This document shows positions 5,030 through 16,689 of a stretch of 64,000 bases of DNA, piece by piece. How positions within the stretch are numbered: position 1 is the stretch's first letter; every line of letters starts with the position of its first letter. The DNA is from Devriesea agamarum (GTDB lineage: Bacteria > Actinomycetota > Actinomycetes > Actinomycetales > Dermabacteraceae), in NCBI RefSeq assembly GCF_900070355.1, contig NZ_LN849456.1:434001-498000 (forward strand). The letters are read 5' to 3'. The position numbers were made by a program, and so were the translations under genes. The notes below the pieces were generated by a model. The model was not told where the DNA came from, did not search any database, and saw only the letters and a program-made list of their open reading frames with translations.

Positions 5030-6379
5030 CTAAACCGCCGAAGCCGCTGAGTTTTCCGACGGCGCGGGCCGGGCGATGACGTACAGGCACACCATCGACA
5101 TCAACGCACCGCCGACCATAACAATCGCCATCGGAACAGCCGATGAGGTTCCCGCCAATCCGACTAACGGCGCCGCCGCTGAGGCCGCGCACGAAAAACC
5201 GAGCCCGAGCATCGCTGAGGCGGTTCCCGCGAATTCCCTGGCTTCGGCTGATGCCAGCGCAGCACCATTACCAAAAATGAAACCCTGGGCCAACACCACC
5301 ACAAAGAATCCCGGAAGAACGATCCACACCGGGGTTCCTAGCCATAGCGCGCCAACCAAAAGTGCCACCGCACCCACCGCAGATACGCTCTGGCCCACTC
5401 GGATCAGGGAACGGGCCGCGTAGCGCCGGGTGAGGCGTGCCGACATAAACGCCATGGTCATCATGCCGAAAGCGTTGATGGCAAAGACGACGGAATACTG
5501 CTCTGATCGGAACCCGAGGATTTCCTGAACCACATAGGACGATGCCGATACGTACGCCATCAATGTCATTCCAGACGACGCATTGACGAGCAGATATCCG
5601 ATAAATCGGCGCCGTCGACACAGGGTGAGGCAATTCTTGGCGAATGTTCGTAGCCCTCCGGGGTGACGGTGTTCGCGCGGCAAGGATTCTGGGATCAGGA
5701 GCAGTGTGCCGATAAGACTCAGCACCGACATACCCGCGATCACGATGAAGATCTCACGCCACTGGCCCACCAGCAAAATCATGCCTCCGATGAGGGGCGC
5801 GATAATTGGGGCAATGCCGCCGATACCCTGCAGGATGTTCATGAGCCGCACCATCTCGGGGCCATCGGTGAGATCGATGAGAACTGCCCGTCCCAGCACC
5901 ATTCCGAATCCCCCGCCTATCCCCTGGATCAAACGGGTAATCAGGAGCATGTCGATGTTGCCGGCTAAAGCACATCCGATGGAACCAGCCATGCACAGTA
6001 CGATGCCGACGAGCAGCGGTATCCGACGTCCGAGCCGGTCTGAGAGAGGGCCGGCAACAATCTGGCCCATTGCTGCACCCAGGAAAAACGCGGTGAGGGT
6101 GAGCTGAACATTCGCCGCAGAAGTGCCAAGATCGCTGGTCACCCTCGGGAACGCAGGAATGTACATGTCGGTGGCGAACGGGCCGATGGCGCTTAATGTC
6201 GTAAGGACGGCGATCACCATGCCGGTAACGCGGTGCCTAGTTCGCGCTCGGTCATGGTCATCGGCGCGGCAGGCAATGTCGCGGTCGGCGGCGTCTTCTA
6301 GGACGGGAACTGACGAATTTAGGGTCGGGATGGGGCCGGTGAGGGGGCGACGATCGTCATCATGATCATGGTGGGGCAC
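5030..6379 (-). CDS. Bcr/CflA-type MFS drug efflux transporter
   Basis: The protein has 449 residues and about twelve hydrophobic segments. The first helix region carries ATDMYIPAFP, typical of Bcr/CflA (DHA1) exporters, and the loop after helix 2 has the MFS motif A GPLSDRLGRRIPLL. It should export small drugs or amino-acid derivatives by proton antiport across the cytoplasmic membrane. The first 50 residues are His/Asp-rich and cytoplasmic (HHDHDDD), so a shorter start nearer the first helix is possible. It lies 53 bases behind the tetR gene on the same strand, which suggests co-transcription and control by that repressor. A 35-bp piece of its 3' region reappears at 921-955. Confidence 0.9.
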   Translation of the reverse strand: MPHHDHDDDRRPLTGPIPTLNSSVPVLEDAADRDIACRADDHDRARTRHRVTGMVIAVLTTLSAIGPFATDMYIPAFPRVTSDLGTSAANVQLTLTAFFLGAAMGQIVAGPLSDRLGRRIPLLVGIVLCMAGSIGCALAGNIDMLLITRLIQGIGGGFGMVLGRAVLIDLTDGPEMVRLMNILQGIGGIAPIIAPLIGGMILLVGQWREIFIVIAGMSVLSLIGTLLLIPESLPREHRHPGGLRTFAKNCLTLCRRRRFIGYLLVNASSGMTLMAYVSASSYVVQEILGFRSEQYSVVFAINAFGMMTMAFMSARLTRRYAARSLIRVGQSVSAVGAVALLVGALWLGTPVWIVLPGFFVVVLAQGFIFGNGAALASAEAREFAGTASAMLGLGFSCAASAAAPLVGLAGTSSAVPMAIVMVGGALMSMVCLYVIARPAPSENSAASAV

Positions 6380-6432: not shown

Positions 6433-7089
6433 CTAGTGCCGAGGGGCGCCGGGCAGCGAGAACGTCTCAACCACATGTCGGATCATCATGCCGGCTGTAT
6501 GTGATTGATCGATATCGGCCATCAGTTCGTTAGCCACCAGGTTGAGATGAATGGCCAGCATCATGTCTGCGAAGTGCTCCATTGGAACCAGACAGTGGGC
6601 ATTCATGGATTTAAGGCCGGCGGCATATGTGCGCACAATAGCGTCGCGGATACGCCCGCGCTGCTCCATGAGCTGAGGTCTAGCGTCATGATGACGCAGC
6701 GCATGGGTGAGCGCCTCGTTGTAGAGCAGGTACCACTGGCGACCATAGGGGCGGATAGCCTGAAACACCTGAACCATCGCGTCTTCGCTCACGGGTGATG
6801 AGGGCGGTGCTTCCGGGGCTGCATCCGCGGGCGTTTGAGCCTCAATGATATGGATGACTTCGTCGGTGACCTCGGCAAAGAGTGCGTAGAACACTTCTTC
6901 TTTGCGGGAGAAGTTTGAGTAAAACGCTCCCCTGGTGAATCCGGCTGCCTGAACGATGTCATCAATGGTTGCCGCATCAATGCCCTTGTCAACAAAGACG
7001 TTAGCTGAAGCTCTGATCAAGCGGGCACGGGTGTTTTCCTTGCGGCGGACATGTGCATCGGAAGGTAAATCGTTGTGAAAATGAGACAT
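6433..7089 (-). CDS. TetR family transcriptional regulator
   Basis: The 218-residue protein has an N-terminal TetR HTH at about residues 18-64: TRARLIRASANVFVDKG, then a recognition helix region FTRGAFYSNFSRKEEVF. The C-terminal ligand domain is helical and unassigned. An AAGGAAGG Shine-Dalgarno sequence precedes the ATG. It is followed by the MFS pump gene and divergent from the mmpL-yhgE pair. The repeated ACGTATT palindromes between them are the probable operator, so the protein likely represses both arms and itself until an exported ligand binds. The ligand cannot be read from the sequence. Confidence 0.9.
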   Translation of the reverse strand: MSHFHNDLPSDAHVRRKENTRARLIRASANVFVDKGIDAATIDDIVQAAGFTRGAFYSNFSRKEEVFYALFAEVTDEVIHIIEAQTPADAAPEAPPSSPVSEDAMVQVFQAIRPYGRQWYLLYNEALTHALRHHDARPQLMEQRGRIRDAIVRTYAAGLKSMNAHCLVPMEHFADMMLAIHLNLVANELMADIDQSHTAGMMIRHVVETFSLPGAPRH

Positions 7090-7262: not shown

Positions 7263-7397
7263 GAGCTGGCGTCGAGGCAAAGCGGCTCGCCAGGAGCCCT
7301 CAGCGGCACCGGGTGCGTCGCCCATGGAATCTGACGCGCCATCCACAAGCTGATGGCTTGGCGATGCGCGCTGAGGACTGGGAAAAGGGGTCTTACC

Positions 7398-10300
7398 GTG
7401 TCGTCCGTCCTCTACCGCCTCGGCCATACCCTTGCCACCGCACGGCTGCGAGTGATCGCGGCCTGGCTCATGGTCCTTGTCACCTGCGCGCTGCTCGCCG
7501 TCGGACTCGGAGGCCGTCTCAATAACGAATTCTCAATCCCTGGCACCCAATCGCAACAGGGAATAGACCTGCTCAGTCAGCGATTCCCCGTCCTTGCCGG
7601 ATCCAGCGGTCAATTCGTCTTCACCACCACCGACGGCTCCCCCATCGCCGACCATGCCGCATCAATCACGCAGACCATGCAGCGAGTGAGCCAGGTCAAC
7701 GGGGTGGCGGCGGCCCCCAACCCCTTTGATGCAGATAACCCAGCCAGCATCAGTCAAGACGGCACGACCGTGATCGGTACGGTTCAGCTGCACGAGGATC
7801 TAGCCACCGTCTCCCCCGCAACCGTGGACGCAGTCCGCGACGTCGCAACGACCGCACACATCTCTCACGTCAACATCATGGTTGGGGGCGAGATCTTCAC
7901 GACCATTTCAATCGGTGCGTCCCTCAGCGAAGTAGTCGGCCTTCTCCTAGCGTTAATTGTTCTAGCGCTGACCTTCCGCTCCCTGATCGCCGCGGGAATG
8001 CCGATTGTGACCGCTGTGCTTGGAGCGGGACTATCCATCGCGGGAATCTACATCTCCGCAGCCTTTATCGACATCTCCTCCACCACGCCCACCCTGGCCA
8101 TCATGCTGGGGCTGGCTGTTGGAATTGACTACGCCTTATTCCTGCTGTCGCGACATCGCCACCAACTGGCTGAAGGGATGGAGGTCAAGGAATCCATTGC
8201 CCGCGCAGTAGGTACCGCAGGCAGCGCCGTCATCTTCGCAGGGCTTACAGTCGTCATCGCTCTGGTTGGACTATTCGTGTGCGGCATTCCCTTTCTTACC
8301 GTCATGGGTCTGGCCTCAGCGGGGGCGGTAGCCCTAGCGGTGCTCGTAGCTATTACGCTGCTCCCAGCAATCTTGAGCCTGTTTGGTGAGCGCTTACGTC
8401 CGCGTCGGCGTGTACGGAAAACCGACCAGACTGTTCGTCCCGATCAACTGCCGAGTCACCAGGACAGTGCTACCTCCTCAGCGGCCCAGCAATTAGAAGA
8501 CGCCTCGACCCCATCGTGTAAGACCAAACATCAGGCAGCGGAGGCGTCCGCCGACGATCCAACGCGCAGCGCGAAAACGTCGTTACCTATCCCGAAAACT
8601 TCGGTGCACAACATAAAGACTCCACTGCGCACGCGCTGGGCACGGCTGATCACTAAACATCCCATCATCACCATCGTCGGTGTGCTGCTCGTCGTGGGAG
8701 CGGTGGCGGTGCCCGCAAAAGACCTGGCCTTGGGACTCCCGGATAACGGCACGAAACCGTCATCCACGCAAGCCCGCCAAACCTACGACCTCATCGCAGA
8801 CAAATTTGGACCCGGGTACAACGCCCCACTCATCGTCACCGCAGACATCATTAACACCAAAGATCCCCTGGGTGTCATGGCGGGTCTCAAACGAGATATT
8901 GAGACCGTGCCCGGGGTCTCAAGCGTAGGCCTATCCACCCCAAATCAAGGCGCTGACCTCGGCATCGTCCAAATCGTTCCCGATTACGGGCAAAACGATC
9001 CCCGCACCAGTGAGCTAGTGAAAAATCTCCGGCAGCGCGTGCCAGCACTCGAAGCTCGTTACGACATCAGCGATATGAAAGTCACCGGGCAGACCGCAGT
9101 CGCCGTCGACATCACACACAAACTCGAAAACGCCCTGCTCCCCTTCGGTATTTTCGTGGTCGGACTCTCACTCATTCTGCTCACCATGGTTTTCCGGTCG
9201 CTGTGGGTGCCGATGAAAGCGGCCATCGGATACCTGTTCTCCGTCGGTGCCGCTTTCGGCGCGGTAGCCATGGTGTTCCAATACGGATGGGGAAATGCAG
9301 CCCTCAATATCCACATGGTGGCACCCGTTATTTCCTTCATGCCGATTGTTTTAATGGGTGTCCTATTCGGTCTGGCCATGGACTATGAGGTGTTCCTGGT
9401 CTCCCGAATCCGAGAAGACTATGTCCACACCGGAAAAGCTAAAGAATCCATCGTCAGCGGCTTTACCGCGAGCGGATCAGTGGTCGTGGCCGCTGCGCTC
9501 ATCATGTTCGCAGTATTTATCACCTTCGTTCCCGAATCCAGTTTTGAAATCCAGCCTATTGCGTTCGGACTCGCTGTCGGTGTGGCCGTGGATGCGTTCC
9601 TCGTCAGAATGACTCTGGTCCCAGCAGTGCTCGCTCTTCTCGGCGACCGGGCCTGGAGGCTCCCATCCTGGATCGATCGGCGCCTGCCCCACCTCGACGT
9701 CGAAGGTGAAGGTCTCGTCCGCGTGCTCGAACATCGCGACTGGGTTGCTGAACACGGCGATGTATCCATTCGACTCGAAAATGTCGACACCCCAGACCTC
9801 GGCGTGAGGGGCGCTCCCCTGCGCGGTCTCAATGCCCTCGTCTCCCCCGGCCAGATTCTCGTGGTGTGCAGTCAAGATCCCACAGCCCCCCAGATCGTGA
9901 TGAGTTTGCTGTCCGGACGCATTGCCCCCACCGCAGGGATCTGCGTGGTCCATCACCGGTTCGTACCCGATGAAAGCTCCGCGGTTCAAGCTCGCACTCA
10001 CGTCATCGCGGCAGCACACGACCTAGACGCCGATAACATTCAGAGCAGGCTTCACGCCCTAGACCGGTCAACGGCCTCCGGGCGCACCATCGTGATTGAA
10101 CAGATCAGCGACCTCTTCCCGCCATCAGCCAAGGATAAGAATGAGCCGCCGGTCGCCAGCCTTGAACGGTTGCTCCGCCGCGGAGCCACCGCCGTGATCG
10201 GATGCTCCGGACCTTACACAGCTGTAGGCCCCCAGGCGGACGCCACGGCACATGACGGGGCAATCGACGCCACGCAGACCAGGGTGATCGACGGAGTGCA

Positions 10301-10544
10301 GGCCGGGCCGCAGGAAAACAGCAGTCAGCTGATTACCCAACTGCGCGCGCAGCTGGAGGACCCAAACCGGATCGTACAGCTGATCGTTGATCAGGCAGCA
10401 CCGAGCGAATCAAAGCACACAACCGGGTACGCAGCAGCATCTAATTCACCGGAAATCCCCCGTTCTTCAGGCGCAGCTGCGGTATCCGGGGCATCCTCCA
10501 GCCAGGATCGATCCGGCCATCGTTTGGAAGGGGCAGAATCGTGA
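7398..10544 (+). CDS. MMPL/RND-like transporter with degenerate ABC ATPase-like C-terminal domain
   Basis: Two MMPL halves are visible. Each has an N-terminal helix, a periplasmic loop and a block of membrane helices. The second-half helices carry PIVLMGVLFGLAMDYEVFLV, the Asp/Tyr proton-relay motif of MMPL proteins. The first half has the matching GLAVGIDYALFLLSRHR. After the last helix, residues about 788-960 read like an ABC nucleotide-binding domain (ENVDTPDLGVRG…LRGLNALVSPGQILVV…LLSGRIAPTAGICVV), but the Walker A position holds SQDPTAPQ instead of GxxGxGKS/T. Start: GTG at 7398 with GGAAAAGGGG upstream; an in-frame ATG at 7353 would add 15 unlikely residues. The 3' end overlaps yhgE by GTGA, so the two are translationally coupled. 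It probably exports lipids or drugs. Confidence 0.88.
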   Translation: MSSVLYRLGHTLATARLRVIAAWLMVLVTCALLAVGLGGRLNNEFSIPGTQSQQGIDLLSQRFPVLAGSSGQFVFTTTDGSPIADHAASITQTMQRVSQVNGVAAAPNPFDADNPASISQDGTTVIGTVQLHEDLATVSPATVDAVRDVATTAHISHVNIMVGGEIFTTISIGASLSEVVGLLLALIVLALTFRSLIAAGMPIVTAVLGAGLSIAGIYISAAFIDISSTTPTLAIMLGLAVGIDYALFLLSRHRHQLAEGMEVKESIARAVGTAGSAVIFAGLTVVIALVGLFVCGIPFLTVMGLASAGAVALAVLVAITLLPAILSLFGERLRPRRRVRKTDQTVRPDQLPSHQDSATSSAAQQLEDASTPSCKTKHQAAEASADDPTRSAKTSLPIPKTSVHNIKTPLRTRWARLITKHPIITIVGVLLVVGAVAVPAKDLALGLPDNGTKPSSTQARQTYDLIADKFGPGYNAPLIVTADIINTKDPLGVMAGLKRDIETVPGVSSVGLSTPNQGADLGIVQIVPDYGQNDPRTSELVKNLRQRVPALEARYDISDMKVTGQTAVAVDITHKLENALLPFGIFVVGLSLILLTMVFRSLWVPMKAAIGYLFSVGAAFGAVAMVFQYGWGNAALNIHMVAPVISFMPIVLMGVLFGLAMDYEVFLVSRIREDYVHTGKAKESIVSGFTASGSVVVAAALIMFAVFITFVPESSFEIQPIAFGLAVGVAVDAFLVRMTLVPAVLALLGDRAWRLPSWIDRRLPHLDVEGEGLVRVLEHRDWVAEHGDVSIRLENVDTPDLGVRGAPLRGLNALVSPGQILVVCSQDPTAPQIVMSLLSGRIAPTAGICVVHHRFVPDESSAVQARTHVIAAAHDLDADNIQSRLHALDRSTASGRTIVIEQISDLFPPSAKDKNEPPVASLERLLRRGATAVIGCSGPYTAVGPQADATAHDGAIDATQTRVIDGVQAGPQENSSQLITQLRAQLEDPNRIVQLIVDQAAPSESKHTTGYAAASNSPEIPRSSGAAAVSGASSSQDRSGHRLEGAES

Positions 10545-13150
10545 ACCACAACCGTATGCCCGGCACTCGCAGCCTATGGAAAAATCCCAAAGCGCTGATT
10601 GCCCTGATCGTTCTTCCACTCGTCGCAGCGGGCATCGGCCTCTGGGCATTGCAAGGACGCGTGTCCGCAGTCGACAAAGTACCCGCCGCCGTGGTGAACC
10701 TCGACACCGGCACCCACATGACCATTGACGGAAAGGACACCTTCGTTCCCTTTGGGCGCCAGCTGACCGGGGCGCTCACCCAGCCTGCCACCGTGAAAGA
10801 CGATCAGATCGCACAGTCGGTAAAGCTCGACTGGATCCTTACCGACGCTAATAAAGCAAAAGAAGGCCTCGACAACGGAACCTATTCCGCGGTCATCACG
10901 ATCCCCAAAGATTTCTCGGCCAAACTGGCCACCCTGGGCACTCCTCAAGCGAAAAAAGCCAGCATTAGCGTCGTCACGAATGACGCAAACAGTCCCCTCG
11001 CGGGCCTCATCGGCCGGCAAATTGCACAGGCCGCTGCTGACGGTACCGGTTCCCAACTTACGCAGCAGTACATGAAGGGAATCTACATCGGTTTTAGTTC
11101 CATCAAGAACAACCTGACGGACGCCGCAGCCGGTGCTCATCAACTGCAACGCGGCGCTCAATCACTCGACCAGGGGATGCAAAAAACCTCTCACGGGGCC
11201 CAGAAACTCGCCTCCGGTGCGGATCAGCTTGCCGGAGGCACCGTCCAGCTCAATCACGGACTCGCGCAAAGCGCCGACGGTAGTTCCCGGCTCTCAGTCG
11301 GACTTACCGATCTCGTGGCAGGCCTCAACACTCTGGACTCCGGTATTCACAGCACCGCCGGAGGAGCAGAGAACCTAGCTCACGGGGCAGACCAACTCGC
11401 TGCCGGAACCTCAGCCCTGCACGCCGGCCTCGCCGGGACAGAAAACTCCCCCGGCCTCGCATCAGCAGCCGAGCTTTTAGACCAACAGCTCGCTGGTGAT
11501 GGCACCGCAAAGAATCCCGGCCTCGTTCACGCAACGCAGAACCTTGCCGACGGTACAGCGAAACTTCGTGACGGCGTGGACCACATCAACACCGCGATTA
11601 ATGGCGATCAGGACTCGGGGAAGCCAGGATTAGCCAGTGGCGCACAGAACGTAGCACAGGGAACCCGCGGCATAACCAAACAGGCTGAAGGTCTTCGGAC
11701 TGTGCTGGACGGCACCCCAGGTTCCCCCCGTAACCCGGGGCTAACGAATCTCACCAAGCAGCTGATCGCCCGCTGCCAGGCGCCCGGGGCCGATCCGGTA
11801 CTCTGCGACGGCATTAAAAATGGTGTGGCGAAATACGTCGGCACGCTCGACAAAATGGTGGGCACGGAGAACAGTCAAGGGCTGTTGTCGCTTGCAACCA
11901 CGGTCGATACCGGTGCGCAGAAGGTAGCAACCGGCGTGACAACAGTAGGTGGCGCTCTCAGCGCTGAGCCTTCCTCGCCTGGATCCCAGGGGCAGCCAGG
12001 GCTGCTCCAAGGTGCCCAACAGGTCGCCGATGGCGCCAAGCAGCTCGCCGGCACTGCCCCAGCACTCACAACCGGGGTACACGGTATAGCTGAGGGAACG
12101 CGAGCCATTGAAAAGGCCAGCTCAGCGTTGTCACACGGCGCATCGAAGCTCGCCGACGGGACGAAGGCTCTATCCGCGGGAACGGCGCAGCTTGGTGACG
12201 GCTCCCAACGCCTGGCTCAGGGAGCTCGTGAGGTGCCCGGTGGTGTACGCGCTCTGCACGACGGGACGGTGAAGCTTCAGGCTGGCTCCCAGCACCTGGT
12301 ATCCGGTTCACATGAGCTTGCTGACGGCACCCGCACTTTAGCCGACGGCACTGAACAGCTGACGCAGGGCTCACATAAGCTCGCCAACGGAAGCGGTGAG
12401 CTTGCTGGAGGGCTCACCGACGGCGCCAATAAAGTCCCCGAGTACACACCTGAACAGCAGCAACGCATGAGCTCGGTGGTGGCAGAACCTGTTTCTACCG
12501 TCGCGACAACTCATAACGCAGCCTCGAGTGACGCAACTGCAACGGCTCCGTTTGTGATTGCCCTTGCGCTGTGGCTCGGCCTTTTTGGGGTTTTCCTCTT
12601 CGTGCCTGCTGTTTCGCGTCGTCTTCTGGATCGTGCGCTGCCGATGTGGTTGGTTGTTCTTCGGTCCTTGGTACCGGCTGTTCTGATCGGTCTCGGTCAG
12701 GGGATTCTAGTGGGTGGATCTGTTGCACTACTCGGTGCTCGCCCAGCTTTTCCACTGGTTACCGGCGTGATGATGGCCGCTGGGGTTATCGCCTTTGCGT
12801 GCGTTATTCAAGCTCTGCTTGCCGTTTTCGGCAGCCGGACCGGACGGGTAGTCGCATTAATTTTGTTGGTCGTCCAGGCCGTCATGCTTACAGGTATTTT
12901 GCCGATACAAACCGCTCCGGATGCGCTGCAAGCGATCGCGAATCGTCTGCCTTTAACGATTCTGTCCTCCGGCCTGGTCCATGCTGGGCTCGGCGGGCAG
13001 GTGGGTTCGTCTCCACGAGTTGTTATCGAGCTGCTGGTCTGGGCGATCGGAGCGCTTGTGGTCACGTTGATAGCCAGTCGTCGGATCCGCATGCACAAAA
13101 TTCCCATCCAGCCAAAAGCCGATGCGGTCACTGCCGTAGGTTCTCAGTAG
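10541..13150 (+). CDS. YhgE/Pip family membrane protein
   Basis: The 869-residue protein has one N-terminal membrane helix (about residues 18-37), a long extracellular region and about five C-terminal helices (from about residue 665). This is the YhgE/Pip architecture related to ABC-2 permeases and phage infection protein. The middle (about 190-640) is a long series of imperfect heptad-like repeats of the type LADGTxxLxxG, predicted to form an extended stalk. It starts with GTG inside the mmpL stop (GTGA) and has GGAAGGGG upstream. Pairing with MMPL and a TetR suggests one export machine for an envelope lipid or toxic compound. The stop lies 8 bases from the convergent dnaE2 stop. Confidence 0.87.
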   Translation: MNHNRMPGTRSLWKNPKALIALIVLPLVAAGIGLWALQGRVSAVDKVPAAVVNLDTGTHMTIDGKDTFVPFGRQLTGALTQPATVKDDQIAQSVKLDWILTDANKAKEGLDNGTYSAVITIPKDFSAKLATLGTPQAKKASISVVTNDANSPLAGLIGRQIAQAAADGTGSQLTQQYMKGIYIGFSSIKNNLTDAAAGAHQLQRGAQSLDQGMQKTSHGAQKLASGADQLAGGTVQLNHGLAQSADGSSRLSVGLTDLVAGLNTLDSGIHSTAGGAENLAHGADQLAAGTSALHAGLAGTENSPGLASAAELLDQQLAGDGTAKNPGLVHATQNLADGTAKLRDGVDHINTAINGDQDSGKPGLASGAQNVAQGTRGITKQAEGLRTVLDGTPGSPRNPGLTNLTKQLIARCQAPGADPVLCDGIKNGVAKYVGTLDKMVGTENSQGLLSLATTVDTGAQKVATGVTTVGGALSAEPSSPGSQGQPGLLQGAQQVADGAKQLAGTAPALTTGVHGIAEGTRAIEKASSALSHGASKLADGTKALSAGTAQLGDGSQRLAQGAREVPGGVRALHDGTVKLQAGSQHLVSGSHELADGTRTLADGTEQLTQGSHKLANGSGELAGGLTDGANKVPEYTPEQQQRMSSVVAEPVSTVATTHNAASSDATATAPFVIALALWLGLFGVFLFVPAVSRRLLDRALPMWLVVLRSLVPAVLIGLGQGILVGGSVALLGARPAFPLVTGVMMAAGVIAFACVIQALLAVFGSRTGRVVALILLVVQAVMLTGILPIQTAPDALQAIANRLPLTILSSGLVHAGLGGQVGSSPRVVIELLVWAIGALVVTLIASRRIRMHKIPIQPKADAVTAVGSQ

Positions 13151-13158
13151 CGCGTTAG

Positions 13159-16100
13159 TTACTGAAAGTCTCGGGATCGGACCGGAACTGGACTGGTGAT
13201 TGCCCGCGCCCCGTCGCTCATAAGGCTCACCACCCCATCGACGTTTTCGACTATGCCGCGCATGATCACCGCCGGAGCAGTGCGCAATAAGATTCGGTGC
13301 CGACGCCACATGCCCTGACTGCAGACCACATTGAGGATTCCGCTTTCATCTTCGAGTCCGAGGAATGTGATCCCCGAAGCGGTTTGGGGCCGTTGACGAT
13401 GGGTAATGAGCCCGGCGACCAAAACGCGGGTCCCTGGTTCGATTTTCCGCACGTTAGCGATAGGCACCACGTGGTGGTCCGTTAATTCATCGCGCAGCAA
13501 GCTCATGGGATGCTCCCGTGCCGTAATGCCTGTGGCCCAGGCATCGGCCGCGCTTAATTCCCAATCGCTCATACCGGGCAAGGTCGGGGCGTCGGTGCCT
13601 ACGGTGAGGCCGGGTAACCATTCGGGTCGTTCTTGCGCTGCTGGTCCAGCCGCCCACAGCGCGCGGCGTCTGGATCCACCTGCCAGCTCGTCGAGGGCAC
13701 CAGCTGTTGCTAAAGCTTCAAGCTGCCCTTTGGATAGACCAACCCGGCGGGCGAGATCAGGTATTGAGCTAAAGTGACCGCCGACGGATCGTTCGTCCAC
13801 AATGCGTTCAGCGCATTCGCTATCGATTCCCCGGACCGATGACAGACCTAATCGCACCGCTGGTCCTCGGCGAGCCGTCTCCCCGGTCACCTGTAACCCG
13901 TCACCGTCCATCGCACGGTAAGGGGTATGACCGGGTGGGCACTCTAAGGTGGCGACCGTTTCCGAGGCAGAAATATCCACCCCGAGGGTGAGTACCCCGT
14001 GCCGACGGGCATCGGCTACGAGCGAAGCAGGGGAATAGAACCCCATGGGTTGGGAGCGCAGCAAGGCTGCCAGGAACGCCGCCGGGTAATGACATTTGAG
14101 GAAAGAACTCGCATACACCAGATAGGCGAAGGAAAAGGCGTGCGACTCAGGGAAACCGTAGTTGGCGAACGCTAAGAGTTTCCGGTGAACCTGTTGGGCG
14201 ACCTCGCCGATGATCCCATGCCGAGCCATACCAGCAAACAGCTCATCGGATAGTTCAAGCATTCGCTCTGTCGATCGTTTGGACCCGATCGCACGGCGCA
14301 GCTGGTCGGCCTGGGCAGGGGTGAAGTCCGCGATATCCACCACCATCTGCATCAGCTGCTCTTGGAAAAGAGGAACACCTAGGGTTTTCGCGAGCGACTT
14401 TTCTAAAAGCGGATGTAGATAAGTGACGTCCTCCTCCCCGTTGCGGCGACGAATATAGGGGTGGACGGATCCCCCTTGGATGGGGCCTGGCCGGATTAAC
14501 GCAACCTGCACCACCAGGTCGTAGAAAGTTCGTGGTCGCATTCGTGGCAGGACTGATATCTGTGCTCGGGATTCCACCTGAAAAACCCCGACGCTATCGC
14601 CTGCACACAGCATGTCGTACACCGCTGGATCATCTTGCGGAAGAGAGTGAAGGCTCCAGTCTTCACCATGGTGTTCAGAAACTAGGCGTAGACAGTGATC
14701 TAGTGCGGTCAGCATGCCGAGGCCTAGCAGGTCAAATTTTACGAGTCCCGCATCAGCGCAATCATCTTTATCCCACTGCAAAACGGTGCGCCCCTCAGTG
14801 CGCGCCCATTCCACCGGACAAACCTCAATAACAGGACGATCGCACATCACCATCCCTCCCGAATGAATCCCGAGGTGCCGAGGCGTATGGAGCAGTTCTT
14901 GGGCTATGGCGATGACCTCATCTGGAATGCCTTCGGCGGTATTCAGCGATGAGAAACGGCGTTCGAGCTGGCGGGACCAGGCGTCTTGGAGGCCAACGTC
15001 ATACCCCAGCACTCGTGCAGCATCCCGCACTGCAAGCCGCGACCGGTACGTAATCACATTGGCGACTTGCGCCGCATAGGTGCGTCCGTGGCGCGCGTAA
15101 ACATATTGGATCACCTCCTCACGTCGATTAGAGGCGATGTCGATATCGATATCTGGAGGCCCGTCGCGCTCTGGCGCGAGGAATCGTTCAAAGAGCAAGC
15201 CATGCTTGACCGGGTCCACGGAAGTGACTCCCAGCGCGTAGCACACAGCAGAATTTGCTGCGGAGCCGCGTCCCTGGCACAGAATGTCGTTGTCCCGACA
15301 GAATTTCACCAGCTCATGCACGATCAGGAAATAACCGGGGAAATTTAGGTTCTCGATCACGTCGAGCTCGTGATTAATCTGTGTCCACGCTTTGTCATTA
15401 TGCGCAGGCTCGGGGAGAAGGCCGTGCATCTGCGGGGCAGGCCCGTAGCGTTCGCTCGCCCCCTGGTACACGAGTTCGCGTAAATAGGATGCTTCGTCAT
15501 GTCCGTCAGGCACTGGAAATGGCGGTAGATCGGGCGCAATGAGCCGTAGATCCATGGCGCACTTCTCAGCGATCCGCACGCTCTCTGCGAGTGCGTGCGG
15601 ATACCTGGGTACTAGCTCGGCCATTTCTTTTCCGCTGCGTAAGTGGGATGAACCGGAAGCGAGATAGCCATCGGCTTGATCTAGCGGGACTCCTGCTCGT
15701 AAAGCAGAATGCACATCGGCTCGGCGTCGGTCTTGTGGATGCGCGTAGTGCGCATTACCGGTGATGACCTCGGGTAAAAGAGAAATACCTAGATTGCGTT
15801 GCTCTCGAACAATCCGTGCTCCTTGAACCAAAGCATCATGCAGTTCGTCCCGGAGGGTATCGCCCTGTGCTACTAGTTCGACCACAACCTGACCTACTCC
15901 GAAAATGTCGAGCAGCCGGTTTATGTGATCGGCGGCGGCCAGTGCGGCTGCCTCTAGGTTGCCGTGTATAAGATGCGCCTGGGCTGCTGCGCTCACGGCT
16001 CCGTGTCGGCACCCGGTGAGGATCAGCCAGTTTCCTCCCTGAGCTTCCCGTGCTAAATCTTTGAGCCGATATACCGGCGAGCCTTTTTGACCTCCGGCGA

Positions 16101-16689
16101 GATGGGCTCGGGCAATGGTTGCGGCAAGTGATCGATACCCCTCGGGTGAGCGCGCCAGAATAAGCAGGTGCTCCCCTTGAGGGTCTGCGCATCCAGTCCG
16201 CGGAGATGATGGTACGGGCAGATCACCGGCCACGGTTGCCCCGGGTTCGGTGCCGACGGTGAGTTCAGCGCCGAATACTGTTTTGAGGCCACATCGGCGT
16301 GCTGCCGTCGCAAAGCGTACGAGCCCGTAGAATCCGTCGTGATCGGTGAGGGCTAAAGCGTGCAATTTAAGTCGCATCGCTTGGCTGACCATATCTTCTG
16401 GGCTAGATGCTCCGTCCAAAAAACTGTAATGAGAATGGGCATGTAGCTCTGCGTAGGCAATGGTGTCCTCATAAAGACCTTGATCAGGTTCTTTACGTGC
16501 CTTTCCCTGCGCGCTAGTTGGGTGAGGAGGATCCGTGGCATCCGCTGTGGGGTCCGCGGGGCATGCGCCATCGGATGAGGCGGGATATACGCTGGCAGAC
16601 GAGGAATCTCCGCTGTTGGATGACATGCGATCGGACAGGATGTCATCGACTTCGCGCCAGGAACGAGGGCCAGAGTGCCAGCGACTCAT
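13159..16689 (-). CDS. dnaE2: Error-prone DNA polymerase III alpha subunit DnaE2 (ImuC)
   Basis: The 1176-residue protein starts MSRWHSGPRSWREVDD, the usual DnaE2 opening. The PHP domain begins with AELHAHSHYSFLDGASSPED and ALTDHDGFYG. The polymerase active site shows GRGSAANSAVCYALG and the catalytic acidic run PDIDIDIA. A C-terminal OB fold is present (RVLVAGLITHRQRPQTASG). DnaE2 is the catalytic translesion polymerase of the ImuA'-ImuB-DnaE2 mutasome, responsible for damage-induced mutagenesis in actinomycetes. A Ser/Ala/Pro-rich linker at about residues 22-65 is longer than usual. It is the last gene of the operon, 48 bases behind imuB, and convergent with yhgE. Confidence 0.95.
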   Translation of the reverse strand: MSRWHSGPRSWREVDDILSDRMSSNSGDSSSASVYPASSDGACPADPTADATDPPHPTSAQGKARKEPDQGLYEDTIAYAELHAHSHYSFLDGASSPEDMVSQAMRLKLHALALTDHDGFYGLVRFATAARRCGLKTVFGAELTVGTEPGATVAGDLPVPSSPRTGCADPQGEHLLILARSPEGYRSLAATIARAHLAGGQKGSPVYRLKDLAREAQGGNWLILTGCRHGAVSAAAQAHLIHGNLEAAALAAADHINRLLDIFGVGQVVVELVAQGDTLRDELHDALVQGARIVREQRNLGISLLPEVITGNAHYAHPQDRRRADVHSALRAGVPLDQADGYLASGSSHLRSGKEMAELVPRYPHALAESVRIAEKCAMDLRLIAPDLPPFPVPDGHDEASYLRELVYQGASERYGPAPQMHGLLPEPAHNDKAWTQINHELDVIENLNFPGYFLIVHELVKFCRDNDILCQGRGSAANSAVCYALGVTSVDPVKHGLLFERFLAPERDGPPDIDIDIASNRREEVIQYVYARHGRTYAAQVANVITYRSRLAVRDAARVLGYDVGLQDAWSRQLERRFSSLNTAEGIPDEVIAIAQELLHTPRHLGIHSGGMVMCDRPVIEVCPVEWARTEGRTVLQWDKDDCADAGLVKFDLLGLGMLTALDHCLRLVSEHHGEDWSLHSLPQDDPAVYDMLCAGDSVGVFQVESRAQISVLPRMRPRTFYDLVVQVALIRPGPIQGGSVHPYIRRRNGEEDVTYLHPLLEKSLAKTLGVPLFQEQLMQMVVDIADFTPAQADQLRRAIGSKRSTERMLELSDELFAGMARHGIIGEVAQQVHRKLLAFANYGFPESHAFSFAYLVYASSFLKCHYPAAFLAALLRSQPMGFYSPASLVADARRHGVLTLGVDISASETVATLECPPGHTPYRAMDGDGLQVTGETARRGPAVRLGLSSVRGIDSECAERIVDERSVGGHFSSIPDLARRVGLSKGQLEALATAGALDELAGGSRRRALWAAGPAAQERPEWLPGLTVGTDAPTLPGMSDWELSAADAWATGITAREHPMSLLRDELTDHHVVPIANVRKIEPGTRVLVAGLITHRQRPQTASGITFLGLEDESGILNVVCSQGMWRRHRILLRTAPAVIMRGIVENVDGVVSLMSDGARAITSPVPVRSRDFQ

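Follow-up and report, generated by a model that had tools for sequence, protein, structure and literature searches.

A degenerate ABC nucleotide-binding domain at the C-terminus of an MMPL transporter encoded beside yhgE

An ABC-2 permease is as a rule mounted on two nucleotide-binding domains (NBDs), whose helical subdomain normally contributes to the docking groove. In ABC exporters such as TAP1, CFTR and ABCG5 one NBD site is degenerate while the other stays active, and MMPL pumps, as known from MmpL3, use the proton gradient. The locus considered here lies in a stretch of 64,000 nucleotides of the Devriesea agamarum genome that was analysed as a whole (the window), and encodes an MMPL protein with a C-terminal tail, followed by a YhgE/Pip protein. 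With the ABC transporter NBD (PF00005, ABC_tran) the tail has the fold in common, but it differs in being without Walker A, the signature, the Walker B Glu, the H-loop His and the helical subdomain, in having no ABC_tran match, and in being fused to an MMPL protein. The MMPL (MmpL) transporters of the RND type (PF03176) are like the window protein over the whole membrane body, but 34 of 38 MMPL ORFs from 13 genomes have no tail. As in TAP1, CFTR and ABCG5, degenerate NBDs are kept in the machine, but here a canonical site is found neither in the fused nor in the stand-alone sequences. The partner gene is of the YhgE/Pip and EsaA family, its product scoring over the cut-offs of TIGR03061 and TIGR03062.

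According to the available part of one source, the YhgE/PIP domain is without known function and some YhgE/Pip proteins are required for phage infection (PMC4999554); the same part names no ATPase partner for the PIP protein of E. faecalis, whereas an NBD-like partner accompanies YhgE here. Putative ABC-2 transport proteins are among the homologues of the PIP family, as stated in the accessible portion of PMC3924187. In Saccharopolyspora hirsuta at 24 h with cholesterol, the YhgE/Pip gene F1721_04135 was up 3.82 fold and the MMPL gene F1721_04140 up 3.33 (PMC9782250, accessible portion). These two are taken to be neighbours, judged from their locus numbers, and the data hint at shared regulation of YhgE/Pip and an MMPL protein, tailed or not, in that organism. 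In the literature searched, which held few subscription journals and no preprints, there was no earlier description of an MMPL-NBD fusion or of NBD partners of YhgE.

The MMPL-family (RND superfamily) ORF occupies positions 7353 to 10544 on the forward strand, where it starts either with ATG at 7353, as chosen by the ORF tool, or with GTG at 7398, which gives the 1048 residues assumed in a previous reading of the sequence alone (the sequence-only reading). PF03176 matches the ORF in two stretches that cover the whole membrane body (Pfam; E 2.3e-83, 280.3 bits against a cut-off of 20.5), while the MmpL3 equivalog NF052608, with a cut-off of 1400 bits, is not reached (163.9 bits). Past the last membrane helix there are another 282 residues (782-1063 of the ORF), which constitute the tail. 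Its first part is a linker (9696-9764, forward) with a DVEGEGL motif and a helix, at tail residues 5-20 in the AlphaFold2 (AF2) model, that carries an invariant Trp (W16 of the tail); the linker has columns that are invariant in alignments of 30 tails (A1) and 43 tails (A4). Then follows, at 9765-10388 on the same strand, a degenerate ABC nucleotide-binding domain (pseudo-NBD), identified by AF2, Foldseek, VIA-align and profile searches of the PDB and of genomes, with its helical or signature subdomain missing and with a low-confidence insertion at tail residues 182-203. The sequence-only reading had put such a domain, with its Walker A gone, behind the last MMPL helix at 9770-10290; a domain is indeed there, but it is longer, about 9765-10388.

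The peptides on which that reading was built are present as quoted, all on the forward strand. LRGLNALVSPGQILVV is found at 9819-9866 and is followed by SQDPTAPQ at 9870-9893, which occupies the position of the P-loop GxxGxGKS/T, so that Walker A is gone. LLSGRIAPTAGICVV, at 9906-9950, is a conserved GR..P..G segment, within which all 43 tails of A4 share G74 and R75 (tail numbering). Further on, the former Walker B strand, TIVIEQ (10086-10103, forward), is without the Asp-Glu pair, and the strand ahead of the former H-loop, TAVIGCS (10188-10208, forward), is without the His. The MMPL gene ends at 10527-10544 (forward) with GGAAGGGG just upstream, and its stop overlaps the GTG of yhgE by 4 bases. 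GGAAGGGG, which lies inside the MMPL coding sequence, reads as a putative ribosome-binding site of yhgE; a C-terminal EG, considered as a protein motif, was dropped, since it reads instead as the coded form of that site. The YhgE/Pip protein, a membrane protein that is ABC-2-like and contains a long region of heptad repeats, is encoded at 10541-13150 (forward).

When the window tail is searched alone, no ABC family is matched in Pfam, the best ABC chain in the PDB is ABCC4 with E 1.4, and a scan of the genome collection gives no matches. When the 43 tails of A4 are combined into a profile, ABC ATPases in the PDB are reached down to E 1.6e-6; the best 60 matches listed all have E <0.001 and are ABC proteins by name, except 5x7k, labelled 'Lipase B', although many of the alignments span only the first half of the domain. 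In genomes, the same profile finds stand-alone ABC-like ORFs with E down to 2.0e-15 (one genome). ABC_tran itself matches only five of the 43 tails at E up to 0.1, the best being 0.001 (Pfam). A FIST-domain identity was also tried and rejected, its Pfam match (E 0.021) being below the cut-off and confined to two of the 43 tails, so that it is not family-wide.

An AF2 model of the tail, built with 23 sequences, has a pTM of 0.74 and a mean pLDDT of 78. Among the first 17 ten-residue blocks, 11 have a pLDDT of at least 92 and the other blocks are at 75-89; values below 50 occur only at tail residues 182-203 and 252-282, and from this follows that the rest of the tail is not a disordered extension. 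The order of its elements reads like that of an NBD without the helical subdomain: two N-terminal strands, the P-loop strand and helix, a hairpin and the former Q-loop strand in the first half, and a short helix, the former Walker B strand, a helix, the H-loop strand and a last helix and strand in the second. Foldseek gives 859 PDB matches at E of 0.001 or lower, of which the best 50 listed read as ABC proteins. With VIA-align the best chain is 4yer_B (Z 15.1 over 159 residues at 3.0 A), the 50 rows listed again read as ABC proteins, and Z 8 is reached by 983 of 998 chains. Residues 782-1012 (9696-10388) hence fold as an NBD, which is the outcome that the sequence-only reading had anticipated from structure prediction. 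The result that it had named as speaking against the idea, no NBD fold or a disordered and unconserved tail, did not occur: the fold is confident and 42 of 47 family genomes keep the tail.

One could argue, with reference to the non-significant single-sequence searches, that the likeness to an NBD arises by chance in a disordered, unconserved stretch. The probability of this is close to nil in the face of the conservation in the family, the invariant columns, the PDB profile matches, the confident AF2 fold and the VIA-align result, the low-confidence ends excepted, and chance or disorder was rejected on account of conservation, PDB profile, AF2 and VIA-align. Homology, fold and the pattern of motif loss together identify the tail as a degenerate ABC nucleotide-binding domain.

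The loss of motifs can be quantified over 64 fused rows, 66 stand-alone rows beside yhgE and eight controls (other ABC proteins from the same loci) in one MAFFT alignment, in which near relatives are included, two close pairs occur among the controls, one gene is entered twice (as L061 and L128), and the broken locus L060 is left out. In the fused rows, Walker A with K[ST] occurs three times (L136, L196 and L213), and SGG, Asp-Glu and the H-loop His not at all. In the stand-alone rows, K[ST] occurs six times and R[ST] 43 times, again with neither SGG, Asp-Glu nor His, while all eight controls have K[ST], Asp-Glu and His, and only four have SGG. None of the 30 tails of A1 has Walker A, and the former P-loop is variable there; among the positions that are invariant in A1 are P51, G52, G74, R75, P78, G81, P91 and Q98 of the tail. 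The region of the helical subdomain is absent from the window tail both in the alignment and in the AF2 model. The fused tails L105, L113, L116, L119, L122 and L123, from family f19, are longer and keep a region like it, some of them with LSALG-like letters at the signature position. Fused L136 (E 3.3e-16) and L196 (E 2.5e-14), which retain Walker A, are plain ABC_tran by Pfam; L136, L196, L137, L141 and L192 are above the cut-off of that family, and L213 and L205 just below it. To exemplify the range among stand-alone proteins beside yhgE, the P-loops of four from family f42, in another class, read GRNGSGKT, those of six from family f21 read GPSGSGRT or GPSGTGRT with Arg replacing Lys, and the P-loop position of L149 reads MPGGHSQK.

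An active ATPase is unlikely for the window protein because its catalytic motifs are missing, and we infer from the sequence that its tail is without ATPase activity. An ATP-binding, non-hydrolysing switch that gates the complex, at least in the lineages with Walker A, would overlap with the other readings rather than exclude them. It would suit L136, L196 and L213, which fit the Walker A consensus, but it cannot be true of the window protein, where the P-loop is gone, and Asp-Glu, SGG and the H-loop His are absent from all 64 fused and 66 stand-alone rows (one alignment); we regard it as decidedly unlikely.

To see how the tail relates to yhgE, consider a set of MMPL proteins assembled without regard to the tail. 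It comprises 38 MMPL ORFs with a best hit above 50 bits, drawn from 13 genomes of the order; ORFs whose best MMPL hit was below that score were set aside and are presumed to be proteins such as SecDF. The tail is present in four (the window protein, L249, L277 and L278), each of them encoded directly upstream of yhgE. The other 34 extend just 4-46 residues beyond the part that matches the MMPL body of the window protein, and only one of them (L276) adjoins a yhgE-like ORF (Fisher p 6.8e-5, with two of the 36 regions, L251 and L260, ending about 1 kb behind the MMPL gene at a contig end). For the tailless L252, yhgE is about 4 kb away, and the second clear MMPL protein of the window genome, L152, stops 12 residues past the body. 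The link between tail and adjacent yhgE, presupposed by the sequence-only reading, thus holds for four of four tailed MMPL proteins and for one of 34 tailless ones. L276 (2787-7162), from a 1.8 Mb genome with another family code, is a different kind of MMPL-yhgE pairing.

A match to the tail is present in 42 of the 47 genomes of the window's family, f1, which we take to be Dermabacteraceae, the sampled class being presumably Actinomycetes. In one of them (G028) the tail is split over two frames, a few of the matches are at contig ends, and two of the five genomes without a match are assemblies less than 90% complete. Named relatives within this family are Brachybacterium and Helcobacillus. A scan of the genome collection with A1 gives 24 loci, and a set of 16 tails (A2) finds matches in 173 of the 396 genomes searched within the order, a number that is not a count of fusions because many of the matches are weak and in frames of the size of ABC ATPases. 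In 40 regions examined around MMPL-sized or otherwise notable frames, MMPL, tail and yhgE occur together in 34; one region (L100) ends at a contig end after the tail, and in five (L124, L126, L129, L130 and L131) the set was not found by the models used. Altogether there are 64 fused loci (one gene twice) with 11 family codes, so that the fusion is conserved over several genera, a finding that the sequence-only reading had named as support; most of the 64 were found via the tail, and their adjacency to yhgE is therefore no independent test. In L060 (5502-11313, Brachybacterium sp. Z12), relatives of MMPL and YhgE are broken over several frames, either by an error-rich assembly or by true decay.

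In 25 of 29 pairs of fused genes, which share sequences with one another, dN/dS is 0.13-0.57 for the tail and 0.07-0.31 for the MMPL body. It is below one for the tail in 25 of 25 pairs and exceeds that of the body in 23 of 25. By this measure of codon change the tail is under purifying selection, with a looser constraint than in the pump. These numbers bear on the idea that the tail is a vestigial domain in slow decay, retained since the gene end carries the ribosome-binding site and start of yhgE. Lost catalytic motifs, a constraint weaker than that of the body in 23 of 25 pairs and a C-terminal EG that can be read as the ribosome-binding site of yhgE in coded form would all be expected from such decay. 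We nevertheless consider it very unlikely, in view of dN/dS below one in every pair, the confident fold, and the retention of the tail by 42 of 47 family genomes, with two of the five exceptions less than 90% complete.

The YhgE protein of the window scores over the cut-off of TIGR03061 (E 4.2e-32, 111.1 bits against 96.15) and of TIGR03062 (E 1.5e-29, 103.1 bits against 102.2), has TIGR03057 repeats, and matches TIGR03929 (EsaA N-term) below the cut-off (E 8.7e-11). Its match to PF12698 is over the cut-off (Pfam; E 1.2e-19), in agreement with the ABC-2-like character ascribed to it earlier. The AF2 model of YhgE is poor (pTM 0.36); Foldseek with this model gives no match at E 0.001 or better, and the most telling one is 3cni, a putative ABC type-2 transporter domain, at E 0.025. 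A YhgE profile run against the PDB gives 30 sequences, mostly coiled coils and repeats, with no ABC-2 permease among them.

The partners of YhgE were surveyed in a census of 60 loci. These were hand-picked from the yhgE hits that 246 genomes of the class had given; most are rows over the curated cut-off from places new to the analysis, though not every such row was taken, and L213 and L214 were added from below the cut-off. A domain was counted as directly upstream when it was NBD-like, on the same strand, and separated from the YhgE domain behind it by no more than 900 bases. Such an ABC-like domain precedes 58 of 63 yhgE genes, in 55 cases as a stand-alone protein and in three as part of an MMPL fusion (L196, L213 and L214), a fused share that is underestimated since the census model scores fused loci low. 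Only four of the 58 upstream domains (L192, L196, L205 and L213) have a consensus Walker A. From the 55 of 63 yhgE genes with a separate upstream ABC-like gene, mostly without Walker A, follows that the fused tail looks like the counterpart of the usual, mostly degenerate, NBD-like partner of YhgE. For five of the 63 (L194, L209, L210 and two in L211) no NBD-like neighbour was found by the models, which implies that YhgE can do without the partner. L210 (G000:C1:1917054-1917662) is a second yhgE/pip of the window genome and scores 185 bits with TIGR03062 in the genome scan, where the yhgE of the window scores 107 bits; its relative L209 is alike.

Stand-alone relatives of the tail are also reached from the other side. 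In a search with the A4 profile across the phylum (396 genomes), the MMPL junction (profile position 1) is included, among the matches listed, at eight places from seven genomes, and the other listed matches start at profile position 9 or later and are, where checked, outside MMPL frames except in L132. Of 20 places that were fetched, five are fused and 15 are high-scoring stand-alone ABC-like ORFs, 11 of them directly upstream of yhgE, where a TetR-like gene is in several cases close by, and four (L138, the second best of those fetched, L144, L145 and L150) not beside yhgE. The stand-alone ABC-like proteins beside yhgE form a large set (L141-L143, L146-L149 and most of L155-L208). With Arg often replacing the Lys of Walker A, and without SGG, Asp-Glu and His, these are likely to be pseudo-ATPases, and would deserve a family of their own. 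The 58 of 63 sampled yhgE genes with an ABC-like partner, which mostly lacks Walker A and in one lineage is joined to an MMPL pump, give YhgE a testable identity as part of an ABC-2-like machine, maybe one past ATP hydrolysis.

Trees were calculated from rows thinned by hand, 113 for a first NBD tree, 109 for YhgE and 89 for a second NBD tree, with long branches flagged. The yhgE-linked NBDs are separated from the controls with support 99 in the first NBD tree and 100/100 in the second, which contains eight canonical ABC proteins. In both, the fused rows need two changes. In the second, a group of 38 of the 40 fused rows has support 96/87, but the fused rows appear as one group in only 40% of the bootstrap trees; in the first, L136 and L196 are outside. 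In the YhgE tree, the partners of fused MMPL proteins are all (48 of 48) on one side of a branch with support 80, and 46 of 48 at 99. Nearest to them (97) are S_L192, S_L205 and two orphan YhgEs, S_L192 and S_L205 being the two loci of the census in which a stand-alone domain has Walker A. The trees suit a single fusion with later loss of Walker A, short of proof, and a single origin is not firm. Probably there was one old fusion, perhaps from a Walker-A-bearing ancestor, after which most lineages lost the motifs for ATP binding and hydrolysis but retained the fold.

The reading that we favour, with somewhat better than even confidence, is that the tail is the fused NBD partner of YhgE, acting as a non-hydrolysing cytoplasmic adaptor by which MMPL and YhgE are kept together as a complex. 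An old fusion would have put an NBD-like partner of YhgE onto the C-terminus of an MMPL pump that adjoined yhgE. The dead NBD would then contact YhgE at the cytoplasmic face without hydrolysing ATP, the proton-driven MMPL protein would work with, or drive, the ABC-2-like YhgE, and the complex might export an envelope lipid or a similar substrate, to go by MMPL relatives. Counted for the adaptor are the ABC fold and homology, the yhgE-linkage of tails, the census (58 of 63), the stand-alone proteins (11 of 15), the plain ABC_tran matches of fused L136 and L196, the NBD and YhgE trees and the purifying selection. Counted against it are the absence of the helical subdomain in the window lineage, the dN/dS of the tail above that of the body in 23 of 25 pairs, the five of 63 yhgE genes without partner, the tailless L276 pair, the four of 15 stand-alone proteins away from yhgE, the poor YhgE model and a single origin of the fused NBDs that is not firm. 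Since the helical subdomain is missing in the window lineage, a simple canonical docking is disfavoured. Of the sequence-only reading, the structural part is borne out, and the functional part (docking or sensing by the tail, and hybrid export) is plausible.

A more far-reaching proposal is a hybrid RND-ABC exporter, in which YhgE would be the permease and the dead ATPase on MMPL a coupling rod, the fuel having changed from ATP to the proton gradient. We hold this to be conceivable, at rather less than even chances; if the coupling is true, this would be an exporter that changed fuel during evolution. The tail could alternatively be a regulatory or sensing pseudo-NBD, which binds a ligand or MMPL itself and gates the pump, with the link to yhgE reflecting operon ancestry only. 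A fold that is kept with loose sequence is what such a role would give, and Walker A in three of 64 fused and six of 66 stand-alone rows may mean that nucleotide is bound. The linkage of tail to yhgE, and the stand-alone proteins beside yhgE without MMPL, point instead to YhgE as the partner, and make the sensing role unlikely.

Upstream of the MMPL gene, a divergent TetR-like regulator is encoded at 6433-7089 on the reverse strand, and many related MMPL-yhgE pairs are likewise preceded by a similar ORF that runs on the opposite strand. The ORF beside it (5030-6379, reverse) looks by eye like an MFS drug transporter, and a large ORF past yhgE (13159-16689, reverse) is presumably, again judged by eye, a DnaE-type polymerase with a PHP domain.
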